Below are positions 1-9,521 of a stretch of 64,000 nt of DNA, one piece after another. Source of the DNA: Paludibaculum fermentans (lineage in GTDB: Bacteria > Acidobacteriota > Terriglobia > Bryobacterales > Bryobacteraceae); NCBI RefSeq assembly GCF_015277775.1, contig NZ_CP063849.1:3100001-3164000 (forward strand), read 5' to 3'. A program made the translations under genes and the position numbers. The notes under the pieces were generated by a model, which was given only the letters and a program-made list of their open reading frames with translations, was not told the DNA's origin and searched no databases. Numbering within the stretch: position 1 is the first letter of the stretch; each line of letters starts with the position of its first letter.

Positions 1-134
1 GCGAAGGACGTGCGGGTCCTTGTTGCCCCCCCGGTGGGTCGCGGAGTGGGTCCGGGCGGGGGCGCACAGATCCTGCCCGTCAGTCTGTCTCAGCCTCGGA
101 GCGGTTCAGATCAAGGGGCTTGCGGTGGCCGGCA

Positions 135-386
135 TTGCGTTCGACTTGATGCGTCCCAGCGGCAATTGTGGTGGCTGGAATCAGGATGGCGTGGGTCGAA
201 TTACTTGCTCATTGAGGCGCGGCGTGTACTGCATGCCGTTGACGCTGTGTCACTTATGCGTCTGGCGAGGCGACCAGACGGATCCCGTCAATAGATGCCA
301 AAACCCAGGCGAAGCGCTTGGAGCTCCTAATAACCTTTGTTCTTTCAGTTACTTACGAAGCGGGACGGGCTAGGCTGTCGCCTTTC
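135..386. repeat. 252-bp direct repeat, copy A
   Basis: This stretch aligns without any gap to 3015-3266. Both copies are 252 bp, start with TTGCGTTCGAC and end with GTCGCCTTTC; the first 60 bases are nearly identical and the rest is more diverged. No convincing gene runs through it. It lies about 115 bp beyond the 3' end of the small gene at 501-959. The last 25 bases contain a GGGACGGG half-site like the REP hairpins near 3.3-3.5 kb. I see nothing else supportable in 1-134 or 387-500. Confidence 0.8.
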
Positions 387-500
387 CGTCATCTACAGGC
401 GTGCCGTCGAACACGCCGAAGCGCAGTTGCAAGAACCGCAGGACTCGTGCAGATCACAGCGCCGCCGTCATGTTGCGTGGCGGCGCAGTTTCGGGGCACG

Positions 501-959
501 CTACTGCTTCGGTTTACCAGGGCTGTTCTTCAACGGAGAAATACGAAGCTCCGAGACACCTTCGATCTCCAGGATGCGCTTCGAGGGCGGCTTCCAAAGA
601 AAACGGCCAGTGAAGATCGCAGCAACAGACTTATCCGTCGTGCCTGGCGCACCCGCTTCAATAGCTTTGTCAAGTGCCTCTACATCAGGTCTCTTTTCGC
701 CGTCTGCCGCAGGGTACGGTATGATCCCTACCTTACAGCCGGAATGGTTGAGAATAGAATGCTCAAGGCCATCACTTTCAAACGAGGCTTTGAACATCAC
801 TCGTTTATTGGCGAACTTCTCGGGATGAGCAACGATCTCGCACAACGTCGTTGCGATAGGCTGCACGTCATGGCTTGTGGGCTGCTGACCAAGTGCCGAT
901 ACCGCAAACGTCGGCACAAGCCACAATACGGATCGGCGAATTTGACGAGCAGGGTTCAC
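501..959 (-). CDS. Small secreted protein coupled to RHS tip 1 (possible immunity protein)
   Basis: I do not recognise a named family. The product is about 152 residues with an N-terminal hydrophobic stretch (SVLWLVPTFAVSALG) and a likely cleavage site before QQ, so it should be exported. The mature part begins with a CEIVAHPEKFANK stretch, resembling small exported acidobacterial proteins with a predicted beta-barrel-like core; that resemblance is from memory. I chose the GTG at 959 because it overlaps the stop of the upstream RHS gene as GTGA, the usual sign of translational coupling. An ATG at 983 in the same frame would lie inside the RHS gene. Position directly behind a polymorphic RHS tip is where immunity genes sit, and an exported immunity protein would suit a toxin acting in the periplasm. 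That role is inference. Confidence 0.65.
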   Translation of the reverse strand: MNPARQIRRSVLWLVPTFAVSALGQQPTSHDVQPIATTLCEIVAHPEKFANKRVMFKASFESDGLEHSILNHSGCKVGIIPYPAADGEKRPDVEALDKAIEAGAPGTTDKSVAAIFTGRFLWKPPSKRILEIEGVSELRISPLKNSPGKPKQ

Positions 960-2836
960 TTGCAGTTGCCCCCATTCTGGCACCAGATTCGCGTTGACTT
1001 CTGGGCGTTATTCTGGATGGCCTTCTGTCTATCAGCATCGCTGATCCCAGGACTCCACACTCCCCACGGTGACGCAACTCCTAAGCCCTTCGCCACGTTC
1101 GACTGGTTAGAGTACGCATTCATCTCCGTCTGCATTTCCGCAGCCTTGGTCATCGGATTGTGGCCAAGTGGAAAGTCGTCAACTCCGTGCGTCCCCTCGT
1201 GTATCAGAGTCTCAGAAAGCGTCCTGGCATCGACACGAGCGAGGTTCTTCGGATCGAAAGTAATCGTCGTGATCGTGGAGCCAAATGACTTCGTAGTGTC
1301 AGTGACGGCGGTTGCGCCCTTTGCAGCTGCTCCGAAGACAACAACAACACCATTGACCTCCCCCGGTTTTCCGAGGAACTTCAGCGTCTTGTTGATCGCC
1401 GCTCGTTCATCTTTCGATAGGTCCTTATTCGCGGCTGCTGCCTTCGCCTGATTGTAGGCCGCTTCCACCTTTTTGCAATCAGCATCGCTCCCGTTGCAGT
1501 AATACGTGCCCGTCGGATCGGTATATTTCAGCGGGTTATTTCGGACGTAGGCATACAGGTTGAAGTTTTGCGGGTCACTGATGAACTCCTGGAACTTCGC
1601 CCTATCATCGTCCGACCCGTATTGCCAAACCTGCCACGTCAGCGGGTCCGGGCTTGTAAACCGCCCTTGAGCAGAACTGAAGTACCTCGCTTCAAAAAAG
1701 TCCAACCCAGTTTCCGCATCCCGTTCTTTGCCGGTAAAGAGCGTCGAGAGTGAAGCGAGAGCCTCGTCGACACCATATCCCAATGTGGTTGTTCGACCGT
1801 TCTGCGTGGAGAGCAGCGATCCGCCAAACGGCATGTAATCGTGCCTCTGCCCAGGCACCACGGTCTTGTTCTGATCTGTTACCACTCGCGTCGACCCGAG
1901 AGCGTCCACTGTCAGATATTGCCGCCCGCTCGCCGCCACACTACTACCATACTCCGCGGCCAATTGCCCCGCCGCGTCGTAAACGTAGTATGTCGTCACC
2001 CCGGAACTCGTCCTCTGCACCCGCCGACCTTCTCCGTCGTACCCGTAGCTCGCATTCGCGCTTCCGGTCGCGCCCGTTACCGCAGTTGCAACTCTCCCTT
2101 CGGCGTCATAGCTCAGCGTCGGATATGCGTCCGACTTCGGCTTGGTTACATACCCATTCACCACCGTCGATTGGCTCCATTGGTTCGACGGGAAGATGGT
2201 GGCCACATCGCTCGGCTGGTCGTTTGTCACTTCCGCCCCGGAGGGCCAAGGCGGCATCGTCGACCCAGTCAGCAGGGCCCGGTTGCCATATTGGTCGTAG
2301 ACGTAGGTCTGCTGAAAGGTCTCCGTTTCGGAAAACCTCTTCAGCCGGTTCATCCCGTCGTATGTGTATGTCTGTACCGCGCCCAGGGGCCCAATCGTCT
2401 GACTCATAACGTTCCCGTTGTTTGTCGCACACTCGTCCGCATAGCTCTTACCTGCACAATAGCTGTATTGCCAGCTCCCCACCGAATTCGGGCTCGCCGG
2501 CATGCCCAGCGTCACCTGCCGAACCTGCCCTCGAGTGCTGCTATACGTCCAATTCTCTTCCAACCCGCTGCCCAGCGAAAGCTTGCTAAGCCCGCCCATC
2601 ATGTCGTACTTCACGGCCGTCGCGAACGCCGTTCCACCTGCGCCGTCCAGCACGGTGTCTGGCCGCCCCGCAATGTCGTAGCTCCAACTCACCACCCGGC
2701 CTGAGGGGTACGTCGTGGATGACAGCCCCGCCGGAAGATAACTGTACTTGAAGATCTTTTCGGGCAAGCCACTCGTTGTCTGCACGCTGGCCAACGGCCG
2801 GCCCAATCCGTCGTATTGGTAACTGGTCGTACTCAC
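956..2836 (-). CDS. RHS/YD-repeat protein with zincin-like C-terminal tip (5'-truncated)
   Basis: The product is about 626 residues. It begins inside YD repeats (YDGLGRPLAS, YDAEGRVATA, YDGEGRRVQR) and ends the core with the RHS hallmark GKERDAETGLDFFEARY and a YTDPTG boundary near residue 460. After this comes a unique tip with LIHEGTHGVDD; the HEGTH codons lie at 1187-1201 (about residue 546). HEXXH is the zinc site of zincin metallopeptidases, and a following KAAEMQTEMNAY segment could supply the third ligand. Full RHS proteins usually exceed 1000 residues, so most of the shell is missing. The apparent GTG start has no good ribosome site, and RHS repeats continue upstream in another frame (2833-3014), so a frameshift broke the gene. 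The core nucleotides around 1720-2100 recur almost unchanged near 5430-5795. Function as a toxin tip is inferred. Confidence 0.75.
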   Translation of the reverse strand: MSTTSYQYDGLGRPLASVQTTSGLPEKIFKYSYLPAGLSSTTYPSGRVVSWSYDIAGRPDTVLDGAGGTAFATAVKYDMMGGLSKLSLGSGLEENWTYSSTRGQVRQVTLGMPASPNSVGSWQYSYCAGKSYADECATNNGNVMSQTIGPLGAVQTYTYDGMNRLKRFSETETFQQTYVYDQYGNRALLTGSTMPPWPSGAEVTNDQPSDVATIFPSNQWSQSTVVNGYVTKPKSDAYPTLSYDAEGRVATAVTGATGSANASYGYDGEGRRVQRTSSGVTTYYVYDAAGQLAAEYGSSVAASGRQYLTVDALGSTRVVTDQNKTVVPGQRHDYMPFGGSLLSTQNGRTTTLGYGVDEALASLSTLFTGKERDAETGLDFFEARYFSSAQGRFTSPDPLTWQVWQYGSDDDRAKFQEFISDPQNFNLYAYVRNNPLKYTDPTGTYYCNGSDADCKKVEAAYNQAKAAAANKDLSKDERAAINKTLKFLGKPGEVNGVVVVFGAAAKGATAVTDTTKSFGSTITTITFDPKNLARVDARTLSETLIHEGTHGVDDFPLGHNPMTKAAEMQTEMNAYSNQSNVAKGLGVASPWGVWSPGISDADRQKAIQNNAQKSTRIWCQNGGNCK

Positions 2837-3014
2837 CGAGCTGTCACGCCGGTAGGACGTCCTGCTGCGTCAAAACCGCTCGTGGTCACCTGACGGTTCG
2901 AAGGATAGGTCTCGCGATACAGTCCCGCTGGTTTGTATCCGTAACAGAACCTGTAATCAACCCCAGCCACGGTCTGGCGGCTCCCGATGGCGCGACCCAA
3001 GCCATCGTATCGGG
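2833..3014 (-). pseudogene. 5' RHS fragment, frameshifted from the downstream RHS gene
   Basis: In this frame the sequence encodes two further YD-repeat units (YDGLGRAIGSRQT, CYGYKPAGLYRETYPSNRQV, FDAAGRPTG) and then stops at TGA, which overlaps the GTG of the next RHS frame. The reading is continuous with that gene if one frameshift is corrected near 2835. On its 5' side the RHS homology ends abruptly at 3014/3015, exactly where repeat copy B begins. The natural start of the RHS gene is therefore gone. Confidence 0.7.
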
Positions 3015-3266
3015 TTGCGTTCGACTTGATGCGTCCCAGCGGCAATTGTGATGGCTGGAATCAGGATGGGGTGCATCAGATTACTTGCGGGTTGAGCCGC
3101 AGGGCAGGCCGCACGCTATTGAGGCTGTGTTACTTATGCGCCTGGCGAAGCTGCCAGACGGATCCCGGCGATAAATACCAAAACCGAGGCAAAGCGCTCG
3201 CAGTTCCCAATAAACCCTGTCCGTTCCAATACTTACGAACTGGGACGGGTCAGGCCGTCGCCTTTC
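3015..3266. repeat. 252-bp direct repeat, copy B
   Basis: Gapless partner of 135-386. Its left edge coincides with the point where RHS coding homology stops, so this junction is probably a recombination or insertion point. The rest of the 3015-3754 interval holds two REP-like hairpins (listed separately) and no gene that I can support. Confidence 0.8.
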
Positions 3267-3289
3267 TTGGCGCTGCGGGGAGAATATTG

Positions 3290-3309
3290 GGGACAGGTGC
3301 ACCCGTCCC
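3290..3309. repeat. REP-like palindrome
   Basis: GGGACAGGTGCACCCGTCCC is a near-perfect inverted repeat: its reverse complement differs at two positions, both of which would form G-U pairs in RNA. Short GC-rich palindromes of this kind resemble REP sequences mobilised by RAYT transposases. No RAYT gene is in the window. Confidence 0.55.
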
Positions 3310-3515
3310 AATGGAGTTTTCCCCTTCCTGATTGCAGACTTCCTTGTCCTATTTGTGGGATATGGCACAGCGCTGGGCCTTCTCGGCGGATTGGGGAGCC
3401 GTTCTGGAGTCGGTGGATGTTCGAACGGCGGCATCTTAGGGAAAAAGATGGCTGCATCGGCTGAGTTTCTGGGAGATTGGCCCCAGCTGGATGCCAGGTT
3501 TTGGTGATTCGAGGC

Positions 3516-3542
3516 GGGACGGGTCAGGCTGACCCCGTTCCC
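3516..3542. repeat. REP-like hairpin
   Basis: An arm reading GGGACGGGTCAG faces CTGACCCCGTTCCC with a one-base loop and small bulges. The same GGGACGGG core occurs at the right ends of the two 252-bp repeats (near 363 and 3243) and, in variant form, at 3290-3309. Confidence 0.5.
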
Positions 3543-3754
3543 CTGGCGCGGCCCCCAGAGGGGGCCTTGCCTGCGGCCGTTATGTCGCAGCCGGCGCCGG
3601 GCGGGTGCGCATTGGTTCCATCAGGAATAGTGGCGGCGCCGGCAGCTCCGCACGGCCGCTTGGTTCCTTCGCCGCCGCACTACTGCTCAGCGACGCTCTA
3701 CTGCGGGGTGCGTTGCTTCGACTGTGCTCCCCAGCGGTATCAGAACGGCCGCGA

Positions 3755-4099
3755 CTATTGCCTTGCCTCTTCGATCTTCACCCCTTCCGGCTTCGCAAAG
3801 AGCTTGGGTTCAAACGGGAGTTCCTCGTACGTTCCGTACCAGAAAACCTCGCGCTTGTCTCCGCGTTGCCTTGCAACCACCCATGGCCGCTCGGGTGTTC
3901 CGATCGTGAACAGAAAGAGTTGAGAATCGCCAACCTGCACCATAAAGGCAATAGTCGACTTACCCTGAAGGACTGGCCCTTCTTTGGGTGCTGCTCCCTT
4001 ATGTCGGAAGTGCACAAGCTCCCGCCCGAACTCCAACTCAGGAAGCGGGTTCTTCAGTTCGGCGGCTGACTTCACCTGGTCACCTTGGAATATGGGCAT
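3755..4099 (-). CDS. Small protein of unknown function in the RHS island
   Basis: Predicted 114-residue soluble protein with no signal peptide or membrane segment. The composition looks like a real globular protein (FMVQVGDSQLFLFTIGT, KREVFWYGTYEELPFEPKLF) and not like an antisense shadow. I recognise no family. It lies downstream of the membrane-protein gene at 4300-4680 and in the same direction, separated by about 200 bp. It could be an orphan partner gene left behind when an RHS tip was replaced, but no matching tip is next to it. ORFs on the plus strand across the same interval look like shadows. Confidence 0.45.
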   Translation of the reverse strand: MPIFQGDQVKSAAELKNPLPELEFGRELVHFRHKGAAPKEGPVLQGKSTIAFMVQVGDSQLFLFTIGTPERPWVVARQRGDKREVFWYGTYEELPFEPKLFAKPEGVKIEEARQ

Positions 4100-4299
4100 C
4101 CTGCAGTTGAATGTTGGGCAATAATCTACAGATATTTTTTGAGCTGAAATGTACGCGTCCGGAGCTCAAGCACCGGGGATCACTTAACATTTCCTTCCGG
4201 AAGTACTGCGGATCGAGCGCCCCCTGCACATTGGGCAGATATCGCACTCCGAAGTATTCAAATTACATGAATCTCTTCGACTTGCAAGACCCGTAAAGA

Positions 4300-4680
4300 T
4301 CATGTGCGCTTCTTGTCGTTAATGCAATACTCGCAAACGAATATAATGATCGGCAACTCGATAGGGTACATCACCAAAAACCATACAGCTCTCCAATGCG
4401 CGGCATAGCTAAGGAGTAACGAGAAAATTAAACAATGAATGCAAAGGACTCCAAAGAAAGGCGCCCAAAATCTCCAATGACGCACATGATGCGAGTATGC
4501 CCAGACTATATATCCATATAGAAGTAGCGTGTTCGCCGCCAGGCCGCCCCATCTTCCAAGGCGATCCCCTGCGCCAGGTTCGCTATACAGCCAATAGCAG
4601 TAAAGACCCGCCACTAGCCCGACTCCTATTCCAACGTACAGCACAAAATCCCAAATTCGGCCGCGCGAGCCCCCACTCAT
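4300..4680 (-). CDS. Four-helix membrane protein coupled to RHS tip 2 (possible immunity protein)
   Basis: About 126 residues with four hydrophobic segments: FVLYVGIGVGLVAGLYCYWL, TLLLYGYIVWAYS, FWAPFFGVLCIHCLIFSLLL and VWFLVMYPIELPIIIFVC, ending in a charged NDKKRT tail. I recognise no family. The ATG at 4678-4680 overlaps the stop of the RHS gene at 4677-4679 as ATGA, so I chose it over an in-frame ATG at 4710 that would lie within the RHS gene. The DNA here is visibly richer in A and T than its neighbours, which is common for acquired immunity or tip genes. A polytopic protein directly behind an RHS tip would fit immunity against a membrane-active or periplasmic toxin; this is inference. 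Confidence 0.65.
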   Translation of the reverse strand: MSGGSRGRIWDFVLYVGIGVGLVAGLYCYWLYSEPGAGDRLGRWGGLAANTLLLYGYIVWAYSHHVRHWRFWAPFFGVLCIHCLIFSLLLSYAAHWRAVWFLVMYPIELPIIIFVCEYCINDKKRT

Positions 4681-5633
4681 TGACAGCCCCCAGACCGCAT
4701 GAGGTCGCACTCGGACAAGAGTCCGTGTCCCTCAGCGAAAACTACGCCAAGCAACGGTGCACTGGTTTCTAACTTCGTTGATATCCCGAGTAGCCGTTGG
4801 AAGCGCCCGTCCTTGAAGACTCCTTTTGCCGTACGTTGCGACATCTGCGCCGCGCACCTCAGGGCCTTATTCCACGCTATCGCACTCCCTATTTCACCAG
4901 AAGCGCTACCTGCTGTAGACGCCCCGGGGGAGAACGGCATCAGATCGTCGCCCGTCGCGGAAAGGAACTTGCCAAAACACGATGGGAGTGGGACATTTTG
5001 GTCGTAGCCAAAGATGGAATAGAGATCATTAATCATGTCAGGACGGTTTCCACGCTCGAGCAGTGTTGGCAAGTCGCGCGCTACTTGTCGGTAGTACTCA
5101 TAGGTATAGGGGGCCGGACTTGAATCGTCGGTGACTACCGCGCTCGGCTTATCGTTATTTTCCTGCTTGTGGACATCCTCGCAGGATTGCCCCGGATTGT
5201 CGTCGTTATGTTCAGTTCCATCCTCTTCAACCACGCAAGCTTCGCCTGTCGCATCGGTGTACCGGAGTGGATTGCTTCGAACATAACCATAAAGATTCCA
5301 CGACTGCGGGTCTTTCGGGCGTTGGTCGACAAGTGGCAGGTCCGGGCTCGTAAACCTTCCCTGGGCGCTCGACATGTACCTCGCCCCGAAGTAATCGAGG
5401 CCCGTCTCCGCATCTCGTTCTTTGCCGGTAAAGAGCGTCGAGAGTGAAGCGAGAGCCTCGTCGACACCATATCCCAATGTGGTTGTTCGACCGTTCTGCG
5501 TGGAGAGCAGCGATCCGCCAAACGGCATGTAGTCGTGCCTCTGCCCAGGCACCACGGTCTTGTTCTGATCTGTTACCACTCGCGTCGACCCGAGAGCGTC
5601 CACTGTCAGATATTGCCGCCCGCTCGCCGCCAC
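4677..5633 (-). CDS. RHS core fragment with a second, unrelated C-terminal tip
   Basis: The 318-residue reading starts at VAASGRQYL inside an RHS core. It contains the hallmark GKERDAETGLDYFGARY and a YTDATG boundary near residue 130, then a tip of about 190 residues. The tip begins with an acidic, Asn/Asp-rich linker and has no motif I can assign to an enzyme. The core is almost base-for-base identical to the first RHS gene (about 5430-5680 against 1720-1970), while the tips share nothing. There is no proper start: the RHS homology extends upstream to about 5795 but is out of frame because of a 2-base difference near 5672. It is probably an orphan RHS tip without its shell. Confidence 0.65.
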   Translation of the reverse strand: MAASGRQYLTVDALGSTRVVTDQNKTVVPGQRHDYMPFGGSLLSTQNGRTTTLGYGVDEALASLSTLFTGKERDAETGLDYFGARYMSSAQGRFTSPDLPLVDQRPKDPQSWNLYGYVRSNPLRYTDATGEACVVEEDGTEHNDDNPGQSCEDVHKQENNDKPSAVVTDDSSPAPYTYEYYRQVARDLPTLLERGNRPDMINDLYSIFGYDQNVPLPSCFGKFLSATGDDLMPFSPGASTAGSASGEIGSAIAWNKALRCAAQMSQRTAKGVFKDGRFQRLLGISTKLETSAPLLGVVFAEGHGLLSECDLMRSGGCQ

Positions 5634-5796
5634 ACTATTACCATACTCCGCCGCCAGTTGCCCCGCCGCGTCATACGTAGCATGTCGTCACCCCGGAACT
5701 CGTCCTCTGCACCCGCCGACCTTCTCCGTCGTACCCGTAGCTCGCATTCGCGCTTTCGTTCGCGCCCGTTACCGCATTTGCAACTCTCACTTCGGG
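5634..5796 (-). pseudogene. RHS core remnant upstream of the second tip
   Basis: These bases match the first RHS gene near 1940-2096 but carry a 2-base deletion near 5672 that breaks the frame. Homology ends around 5796 (after ACTTCGG), where unrelated sequence starts. This marks the right edge of the RHS duplication. Confidence 0.6.
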
Positions 5797-6460: not shown

Positions 6461-6782
6461 CTCGACCTGGAGCAATTTCGCGCAGTTTGCGGAGGCGGAG
6501 CGCCCCCGCACCAAAGAACCTGGCCGCAGGCAGGCGCATGGCGGGATCGGATAGGGAGCAAAAAGGGCGTTCAGAGCCTGCCGCTTCGGCCCGGAGCTGC
6601 AGCTGGATCTGCACCCACAGCCACTTGGGCGGCACGGAGGGTGAGGGGTCAGGTGTTGCCGTTCGCGATTCTCCAGGGCCTGGAGGCCCGGCAGTCTTCC
6701 GCAAGATCAGCGGCGGCGGAGCAGCCAGTGCCCTGCTGAGCCGGCTGTTCCGTTGGGGCTGGAGGCGGCGACCGCAGCGGAA

Positions 6783-8242: not shown

Positions 8243-9070
8243 TTACTGCAAGGAGGCCAGGATCTCCGCGCGTTCCGGCGAGGTCAGGGCGATCGCGCGA
8301 TTCAGAAAGCGGCGAAGGCGCCGGAGGTCTTGCGTCAATTCCGCGTCGCCGAGAGGAAACTTCGAGAAGTAGTCGATGTTGAAGCCAAGGGCGTCCTGAA
8401 CCTGGGAGGGCGGGGGCAACCCACGACCACCGCGTTGCAGGGCCTTGAGAATGATCATCTGTGCAAACTGATCCATCACCCAAACATCAATCAGCGTGAA
8501 CTCACCAGGCACAAGGTTATCGCGCTCGTCGGTTGTAAAGACGACCAACTTCTGGCCCAGGTTGAAGGTGCTGGCTCCGATGCCCATCATGGATCGCTGG
8601 ATGTCCTGAGCCACCACCTCCCCGCCGGTGTGCGCGCCGCCCGAAGTTACCCAAGATGAGGCTTGAACATCGAGAAGGCTCTGTTGCGGGACCACTTCGA
8701 AGAGCTGGCGCACATAGCGGCTGGAGCCTTGCCCCCAGGTTGAGGAACCGATGATCATCGCCCGAGGCGAGCCGCTGAACAGTTCCGCCAGGCTTGTGGG
8801 GTTGTCGAGCCGCTTCACTGCGTCGAAGTATCCGACGGTCAAGGGAAGACCGAGCTGCCGGATGCGAGTCTCCAGCGCGATCTTCAGCCCATAGCCAGCG
8901 CGGATGGAATCCATCCGGTTGGTGTAGGGACTTGGGGCAACGGCAATCAGACGTATGTCGGCGGTAGCCGAAGGCGCCGATGGCGCCGAGCGCAGTGGCG
9001 CGGGCAAGAGGATGGCGCCAGGCAGCCTGTGGCGGAAGTCGCGCAGCCGCGTTCGCACCGCCGCCGGCAC
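8243..9070 (-). CDS. Flavodoxin-fold protein, start uncertain
   Basis: The body of this protein resembles the flavodoxin/WrbA fold: a first strand IRLIAVAPSPYTNR, a central RAMIIGSSTWG (strand plus binding loop) and SSWVTSGGAHTGGE, which matches the GG..HGGxE loop of WrbA-type quinone reductases. A second part after about residue 190 is helical and not recognised. The start is unclear: the GTG at 9070 lies inside a REP-like arm (9023-9048), so the first 15 or so codons are repeat sequence. The next ATG (8914) would delete the first strand. The original 5' end may have been displaced by the repeat. FMN binding and oxidoreductase activity are inferred. Confidence 0.5.
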   Translation of the reverse strand: MPAAVRTRLRDFRHRLPGAILLPAPLRSAPSAPSATADIRLIAVAPSPYTNRMDSIRAGYGLKIALETRIRQLGLPLTVGYFDAVKRLDNPTSLAELFSGSPRAMIIGSSTWGQGSSRYVRQLFEVVPQQSLLDVQASSWVTSGGAHTGGEVVAQDIQRSMMGIGASTFNLGQKLVVFTTDERDNLVPGEFTLIDVWVMDQFAQMIILKALQRGGRGLPPPSQVQDALGFNIDYFSKFPLGDAELTQDLRRLRRFLNRAIALTSPERAEILASLQ

Positions 9071-9291
9071 CAGAATGCCAGCTCAAGTGCAATTTCAAAG
9101 CCGCTCCGAAGAGAGTCGCCTTTTCTGGGAGGCAGGCCGGCGGCGGGGCGAACCCAAAGGGCGACAAGGGGTTGCGGCCCATGGCAGTGTCGAGCCAGCC
9201 TCCGAGTGGCCGGCACTAGTTCGGCCGGCTCTTCGCGCCCTGGGCTCGCGAGCCCTTGCCGCGCGGCTAGCGGGACTTCCGCCGCAGGCTG
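9023..9291. repeat. MITE/BIME-like element bounded by inverted REP arms
   Basis: The left arm (9023-9048, core GGCGGAAGTCGCGC) and the right arm (9265-9291, core GCGGGACTTCCGCC) are imperfect inverted copies of about 26 bp that enclose about 216 bp. The interior contains the perfect palindrome GGGCTCGCGAGCCC (9242-9255) and no convincing gene. The same arm sequence recurs at 27840-27862 and 42440-42480. It overlaps the apparent 5' end of the flavodoxin-like gene. I see nothing else in 9292-9521. Confidence 0.6.
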
Positions 9292-9521
9292 CTAAGCCGC
9301 GCTGGCCGCCAGGAGTTTCCTCCGATTGAGCTCCAGATTCCATTGCTTCATCGATGTGATCCGCCTCCTTCTCCATAGGGGGGCGAATGCCTGGAATAAT
9401 TTGTCACCCTTTCGCGATGACCGCGAAAAACGCTGAAGGAGGGGGTGCGCGGGCCAAGCCAGCCGGGCAACTCCTCGGATGGACAGTAGGAATCCGGCCC
9501 ATGGGCAACTTCGATATAGGG

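Follow-up and report, generated by a model that had tools for sequence, protein, structure and literature searches.

How do two neighbouring genes come to have nearly the same core and entirely unrelated ends? The question is raised by a 64,000-nucleotide stretch of the Paludibaculum fermentans genome (Acidobacteriota, Bryobacteraceae), bases 3100001-3164000 of the 9.48-Mb contig NZ_CP063849.1, called the window below. Two 3' pieces of RHS genes, polymorphic toxin genes in which a conserved core leads into a C-terminal toxin tip, lie here on the minus strand. The window is likely the fossil of a site-specific tip-exchange system, a decayed, integrase-less array of two tips left by a tip-swapping element. 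An array elsewhere in this genome, at 8.857-8.882 Mb, and the relatives of the element tentatively show what its working form looks like.

The two RHS pieces of the window

The pieces are open reading frames (ORFs) at 956-2836 (626 aa) and 4677-5633 (318 aa), and both match NCBIfam Rhs_assc_core (2.3e-15 and 1.6e-16, respectively). Their core copies lie in tandem, 3.7 kb apart. They are 94% identical over 1682-1981 against 5376-5675 and 96% identical over 1983-2103 against 5675-5795, far beyond chance. The initial annotation, which was made from the sequence alone, had described near-identical cores with unrelated tips, and this description holds: the core identity is 94-96% (1736-2103 against 5430-5795) and the tips fall into separate clusters.

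The point at which identity stops is not where it had been placed, at a YTDxTG boundary. The exact run common to the two cores stops at +13, directly past the 14-bp sequence ACCGGCAAAGAACG, which spells the codons T-G-K-E-R and precedes that boundary by 70 codons in copy 1 and by 56 in copy 2. Counted from this site, YTDxTG starts at codon 71 in copy 1 and codon 57 in copy 2, where the sequences already differ. In the 240 nt 5' of TGKER the pair is 98.3% identical, and from +14 to +60 it is 63% identical. Past the site the conserved core residues are kept and the codons are different. Breakpoints within 2 log-likelihood units of the best are +12 to +14, +20 to +23 and +26, the best single position being +23.

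Both genes lack their 5' part and are frameshifted upstream, as the initial annotation had seen. The frame of gene 1 is broken near 2836, and its RHS sequence stops at 3014, where a repeat begins. Gene 2 is frameshifted about 250 nt upstream of the site, and its match to gene 1 stops at 5795. The locus has what defines an orphan tip, a core fragment and tip with no 5' part and a core common to both copies. It does not have the core/tip split at the end of the core, which in orphan tip loci falls at a PxxxxDPxGL-type motif according to the available text of PMC3150448; here the break is at TGKER, 56-70 codons before YTDxTG.

A recombinase-bearing array in the same genome

If old tips are stored for use in an intact gene, as the initial annotation proposed, a full-length RHS gene with the window core might be expected elsewhere. 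The genome has 34 Rhs-core matches, and no intact RHS gene with the window core DNA was found; the six DNA matches outside the window are each at most 57 nt. The proposed recipient is therefore not seen in this genome. In a protein search of 20 stretches, the closest proteins to the part before the site were 34-41% identical.

The array at 8.857-8.882 Mb was reached via the repeat behind the tips of the window. It consists of four RHS core sites, each followed by a tip, with three elements between them. Two elements are 6,612 bp long and identical at 6609/6612 positions; the third is 10,083 bp. The element order, with domain families scanned on one copy, is core end and tip, immunity candidate, repeat, primase-like gene with CHC2 zinc-finger and Toprim domains, 344-aa tyrosine recombinase (Int) and a short ORF, and the short ORF runs in frame into the next core site. 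The third element also has a divergent gene that by eye is XRE-type. Sites 2-4 have common upstream DNA and different DNA after the site, and sites 3 and 4 diverge after +13, like the window pair. Sites 1 and 2 carry the same tip.

Int matches Pfam Phage_integrase (8.7e-43). Residues R169, H265, R268, H291 and Y300, which we take to be the catalytic R..H-x-x-R..H..Y, are invariant in 9/9 sequences. The best solved relative is XerD (6.7e-58); the integron integrase IntI4 scored 9.1e-24. Three near-identical copies of Int are present in the genome, each between sites of this array; the other four matches are 30-35% identical.

A further locus, with sites at 7315802 and 7316907, is an integrase-less cassette. 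The two sites are 1,105 bp apart, their upstream DNA is unrelated, and they are identical from the site on for at least 60 nt. Directly behind this cassette pair lies a 684-aa ORF (L063 13405-15459; genome 7318405-7320459) that by eye resembles a large serine recombinase.

The putative attachment site

The 14-bp sequence is a putative attachment site (att). Allowing up to two mismatches, its pattern has nine matches in the 9.5-Mb genome, all nine in RHS cores, and an exact pattern was matched 69 times across 37 of the family's 237 genomes; the reversed control gave 0 in both searches. In 18 stretches fetched around exact-pattern sites, 26/26 matches were inside an RHS core.

Codon use was compared at 29 distinct sites from loci chosen via the recombinase rather than the DNA pattern. 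The Gly codon of att is GGC in 28/29 sites, against 17/91 Gly codons at positions 6-25. The Glu codon is GAA in 28/29, against 11/29 for the Glu four codons on (Fisher p=2e-6). The Lys codon varies (17 AAA, 11 AAG), as do the third base of Arg and the Asp codon. Thus synonymous sites are frozen within att and free outside it.

The element side of att has 8-bp inverted arms. These are complementary at 6.1/8 positions in 15 leader sites, which were assigned by the neighbourhood of Int, and at 2.5/8 in the other 64 (p=5e-9); in five of these, which lie inside arrays or near Int, the arms reach at least 5/8 (7 in one). The sites compared are related by descent, and the p-values are indicative. Tandem modules often have unrelated upstream DNA, and their shared run begins at -4 to +2 in 43/45 pairs, a count that excludes pairs differing at the anchor base and that is biased towards 0 by the conserved protein motif. 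Taken together, the site pattern, frozen codons and arms point to ACCGGCAAAGAACG as the probable att.

Element relatives in the family

At least 13 of the 237 family genomes, P. fermentans counted, have a recombinase that is 55% or more identical to Int across the matched part, and 17 stretches were fetched around the copies in the other 12. The order of primase-like gene and recombinase recurs in these relatives, with a leader (the short ORF at the element end) and a core site close behind. The distance from Int to this core site is at most 300 nt in P. fermentans, G046a, G046b, G046d and G048, and about 1 kb in G094 and G011. The remaining Int copies are broken, cut by contig ends or without such a core downstream.

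Direct repeats (attL/attR) bound the element in the P. fermentans array and in genome G046. In the latter one 8.3-kb element is present at two loci, 95% identical, and the match starts at att at both (one base in, the first base differing). The leader ORFs of the G046 elements open with an apparent signal peptide. At 15/15 leader-side sites, three of which are near-identical copies, an open frame of at least 71 codons with a start codon enters the site in the TGKERD frame. An extra 243-aa ORF in the G046 elements (L117 2455-3186; G046 C3:2296455-2297186) is by eye like a serine recombinase.

Tips also occur in longer series. An Acidobacteriaceae metagenome-assembled genome (MAG; L143) has six site-tip modules behind one Int, and several family arrays run head to tail with no recombinase in view. 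On a 7.2-kb contig of genome G050, an RHS gene and its tip are followed by three more site-tip-ORF cassettes, with no Int on the contig. A 1.24-kb tip-immunity cassette is common to G050 and G168, which belong to different genera (75% nucleotide identity). In both genomes the matching stretch opens at base 0 of the site, although G168 carries a variant of it. Identical contig ends of 15-141 nt were found in 8/47 whole Int-carrying contigs, one overlap being att itself; such ends fit circles or tandem units alike.

Int relatives beyond the RHS genes of Acidobacteriota

Among 84,980 species genomes scanned, an Int relative was found in 434 stretches. From these 77 loci were kept, and 73 of them have a primase-like match. 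A TGKERD-type core lies within 2.5 kb downstream at 7/77, four of them already met in the family, and many contigs stop too soon to show one. At 67 loci the longest ORF upstream was taken; it matches Rhs_assc_core at 14 loci and filamentous haemagglutinin repeats at 3. The comparison set was 17 generic tyrosine recombinases from the family of P. fermentans, with a narrower range of hosts than the test set; in 0/17 was this ORF of the RHS or haemagglutinin kind, among the 25 of 30 matched families listed. Twenty loci have 9 kb upstream, and 18 of these were scanned singly, two being left out for size. RHS repeats were found in five (one weak), and a haemagglutinin or toxin domain in two (the toxin domain in a downstream ORF).

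The relatives occur in several phyla, some of them in or behind CdiA-like or other RHS genes. In Paraburkholderia domus a tandem unit with a period of 7,028 bp, 100% identical over the 4,362 bp compared, starts within a CdiA-like gene, near the gene's end. Tandem units are also found in Rhodopirellula, a Thermoanaerobaculia MAG (in an RHS gene) and Rhodanobacter, 100% identical over the 2.9-5.6 kb compared.

A Paraburkholderia plasmid is annotated as haemagglutinin, two hypothetical genes, helix-turn-helix (HTH), toprim, 'XerC', ADP-ribosyltransferase, two hypothetical genes, HTH, toprim and 'XerC'. In a Janthinobacterium plasmid HTH, toprim and 'XerC' stand behind an FG-GAP repeat protein, with Imm26 downstream. 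An Enterobacter plasmid is less clear than these two. The two clearest records name the integrases 'XerC' and the primase-like genes 'toprim domain-containing protein', so that the annotation does not reveal the link to toxins. Separately, relatives of the Paraburkholderia recombinase were found at E<=1e-40 in 199 of 72,556 plasmid records, 143 of them from Salmonella; these could be the element or ordinary recombinases. Two distant Int relatives (21-25% identity) are on viral contigs.

Proposed mechanism

The scheme proposed here builds on the order of the genes, the positions of the junctions, the frozen codons, an element found at two loci, a cassette common to two genomes and identical units in tandem; it supposes recombination activity, excision, a circle, integration, expression, toxicity and immunity. 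The element, 6.6-10 kb long, would read att, RHS core end, tip, immunity candidate, repeat, XRE-type regulator, CHC2/Toprim primase-like gene, Int, leader ORF, att. Int would recombine the att of the excised circle with the att (TGKER codons) in the core of a chromosomal RHS gene. The host gene would then read into the element's tip and acquire its immunity gene, and the old tip would be shifted downstream, behind the element's in-frame leader. Repeated events with loss of the int part would leave head-to-tail tip-immunity cassettes, and arrays could grow or shrink by such loss or by movement of cassettes in trans. In the window two tips would be left, each behind a copy of the same core and each with the element's repeat behind it.

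The window itself is probably a dead, integrase-less derivative, because no remnant of Int, the primase-like gene or the regulator was found in it at E<=0.01. The part of the initial annotation that spoke of tip exchange fits what was found, displaced RHS tips in a degenerate locus and larger arrays with other tips in the genome and its relatives; the part that set the junction at the core end gives way to a fixed 14-bp site inside the core. Its view that displaced tips are silent modules has also to be divided. In recombinase-bearing arrays such tips are, to judge from their reading frames, not plainly silent, because a start codon and in-frame leader precede them at all of the leader-side sites. 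No copy of the element's leader turned up in the part of the window region that was compared.

For the wider set we lean towards a phylum-spanning family of integrative elements that re-arm polymorphic toxins. Int would read conserved codons before the toxin, in RHS genes in Acidobacteriota and in CdiA or other RHS genes in Proteobacteria and others, and would insert a tip and immunity gene in frame, with the old tip kept behind the leader and the old immunity gene retained. If so, these elements would be the missing motor of toxin tip displacement.

Alternative explanations and points against the proposal

An alternative is that RecA-type homologous recombination via the conserved core moves the tips and that the integrase elements are passengers inserting in RHS cores. 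The available text of Jackson 2009 (PMC2935791) proposes exchange of this type for enterobacterial Rhs. About 370 nt of upstream core are common to the window pair, as this alternative would have it, and in four arrays (L225, L213, L218, L223) the upstream core is common with no sharp break at att, the exact site being present in only 1/6 sites of L225. These four arrays indicate that homologous recombination or duplication also acts. As the general agent RecA-type exchange is unlikely, since it would not lead one to expect synonymous sites frozen over 13 bp, inverted arms or whole elements bounded by att, nor tandem modules with unrelated DNA before a site at which their identity begins. Exchange is probably site-specific and not solely homologous. 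For the transfer that the initial annotation envisaged, a tyrosine recombinase on a mobile element is a more probable agent than RecA-type recombination into an intact gene alone.

A second possibility, compatible with the site-specific origin, concerns the present state of the window: its modules may be no relics but working orphan toxin-immunity pairs, with expression from, for example, internal starts. The reading frames of both tips and of the ORFs that follow them are open, recombinase-bearing arrays supply an in-frame leader to displaced tips, and orphan modules of contact-dependent growth inhibition (CDI) systems in E. coli and Dickeya are functional according to the available text of PMC3150448. 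The window genes have frameshifts upstream and no 5' part, and the leader is missing from the region compared; we think function improbable here. Plain tandem duplication of one RHS 3' end, with later divergence of the tips, would account for core copies in tandem 3.7 kb apart and is very hard to credit, since similar divergence would be expected on both sides of att in place of the abrupt fall from 98.3% to 63%, and since the tips are unrelated and tip 1 clusters with tips elsewhere.

Several observations weigh against the site-specific proposal itself, beyond the four arrays with no sharp break. Both window sites have a long host-type core upstream, which requires an extra duplication or homologous step beyond plain insertion of the element, and the window breakpoint is resolved only to +12 to +26. 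Several Int copies are broken (one, in G015, has five stops), and some tips linked to Int are truncated (at two L217 sites and in G094). The match between the two G046 elements does not stop at the next site but runs about 76 bp beyond it into conserved core, which lowers confidence slightly. At 11 of the 18 loci scanned singly, neither type of recognisable toxin gene is near the Int relative.

Synteny within the genus gave no empty site for comparison, at the window or at the array. The one window flanking gene tested was found in 0/8 other genomes of the genus. Right-flank DNA from 12.85 kb of the window on has matches in G205 and G208, and the four stretches at these matches lack any RHS core and do not match the RHS portion of the window. 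Around the G208 copy of the array's flanking gene just 1.5 kb of the array surroundings match, and the G205 contig ends too soon. These partial flank matches reduce our confidence a little further.

Tips, immunity candidates and repeats of the window

The features of the window locus are given in Table 1. Clustering was applied to those tips that extend at least 110 residues from the site (73 of 81) and gave 43 clusters. Tip 1 falls in the largest of these, with 14 members, two of them from the recombinase-bearing array of P. fermentans; tip 2 is a singleton. The H, E, G, H and later E of tip 1 are invariant in 6/6 aligned sequences (the window tip counted), and this motif suggests a zinc peptidase. 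Neither tip has a Pfam match, and a sequence search of the PDB found no solved relative of tip 1 at E<=5. A structure model of tip 1 from six sequences had a mean predicted local distance difference test score (pLDDT) of 51.8, too weak for use. The tip 1 immunity candidate has no homologue among the ORFs of 32 loci, and its alignment with genes behind related tips is weak.

Table 1. Features of the RHS locus in window coordinates
Feature	Coordinates	Strand	Basis or remark
Part of 756-bp repeat (genome 3099632-3100387)	1..387	+	88.8% to 8858424-8859176
Tip 1 immunity candidate, overlaps tip stop	501..983	-	position only
Core end and tip 1, putative zinc-peptidase toxin	956..1735	-	motif (HEGxH + later Glu)
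att site 1 (TGKERDA codons), ACCGGCAAAGAACGGGATGC; shared-core/tip 1 junction	1713..1735	-	identity with copy 2 stops here
Shared core N-part, copy 1	1736..2103	-	94-96% to copy 2
RHS repeat part 5' of core copy 1, frame broken near 2836, meets 252-bp repeat at 3014	2104..3013	-	
Truncated 252-bp copy of the 756-bp repeat, behind tip 2 cassette	3015..3266	+	
114-aa ORF in tip 2 cassette	3755..4099	-	ORF list
Tip 2 immunity candidate, 136-aa ORF, hydrophobic by eye, overlaps tip stop	4300..4710	-	position only
Core end and tip 2, type unassigned	4677..5429	-	
att site 2; shared-core/tip 2 junction	5407..5429	-	junction alignment, site pattern
Shared core N-part, copy 2, frameshifted; match to copy 1 stops at 5795	5430..5795	-	alignment

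The 756-bp repeat behind tip 1 is the one found behind the tip-immunity pairs of the recombinase-bearing array. Its 252-bp form occurs in 13 places (the window copy counted; 40 of 54 first candidates scored), all in RHS loci and in an orientation opposite to the RHS gene. This repeat was considered as a recombination site and dropped: the element carries it along, after the immunity candidate, and it is att that marks the junctions.

The RHS/252-bp-repeat junction at 3014, together with 2843-3013, recurs at genome 3214695-3215110 (93%), which indicates that array segments were duplicated between two loci 110 kb apart. The second locus (L060; genome 3208830-3215110) is a paralogous RHS locus with the same repeat-RHS junction as the window. 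It has 2.6 kb of downstream DNA in common with the window (93.7%) and a different core and tip. Other dispersed repeats are present. Two lie between the tip cassettes, at 3275-3535 and 3540-3663, and the first has more than 10 further matches, only some of them near RHS genes. A third, of about 270 bp (9022-9295), has at least 14 more copies in the genome, 80-95% identical.

Comparison with known systems

No description of this element was found in the open-access literature, most subscription papers and preprints lying outside the search. One lead, PMC3414803, proved false: in its available text 'RHS' is a string of catalytic residues.

In Enterobacteriaceae, old tips with core fragments accumulate behind the RHS gene, and a circular intermediate has been proposed (Jackson 2009, PMC2935791, available text). 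The displaced tips with core fragments are alike in the present case, which has, beyond what that text describes, an integrase, a fixed att and elements with defined ends. Orphan cdiA-CT/cdiI modules are likewise displaced toxin-immunity pairs in tandem (PMC3150448, PMC4927057). The available text of the former discusses recombination at VENN-encoding sequences; that of the latter describes transposase and integrase genes between orphan CDI pairs and suggests site-specific recombination. Within these texts the integrase family, att and element are left undefined, whereas here an Int relative lies in a tandem unit of about 7 kb that begins inside a CdiA-like gene (L183). XerC/D-type recombinase genes adjoin some polyimmunity loci, according to the available text of PMC3482391. 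In the type VI secretion system of Vibrio cholerae a new effector-immunity pair displaces the old one and old immunity genes are kept, which the authors liken to integrons, stating in the available text that there is no evidence for integrase-aided effector insertion (PMC5361080). The replacement of pairs is alike in the two cases; here an integrase is proposed to drive it.

How a tip can be displaced without loss of immunity has been an open question since the orphan modules of Rhs and CDI systems were described. A defined integrase, a 14-bp site and bounded elements make tip displacement testable at the bench, and the sequence between two att sites would give a systematic route to tips and immunity candidates.

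Integrons have a tyrosine recombinase (IntI), head-to-tail cassettes and attC sites, which are long, imperfectly palindromic and active as single strands, and integrase-less cassette clusters occur. The present system is similar in having a tyrosine recombinase beside a cassette array, as in the six modules of L143, and in having integrase-less arrays. It differs in that att is inside coding sequence, the frame is kept and the cassette replaces the end of a protein; Int, too, is not IntI-type by its best solved relative, being closer to XerD than to IntI4. In the R64 shufflon the tyrosine recombinase Rci inverts resident segments at sites in coding sequence and so changes the tips of pilV. The alteration of a protein's C-terminal end by a tyrosine recombinase via sites within coding sequence is common to both systems, but here the sites are direct and an element with a toxin and immunity candidate would be inserted. 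Integrase, tip displacement, cassette array and switching at coding sites are each known singly.

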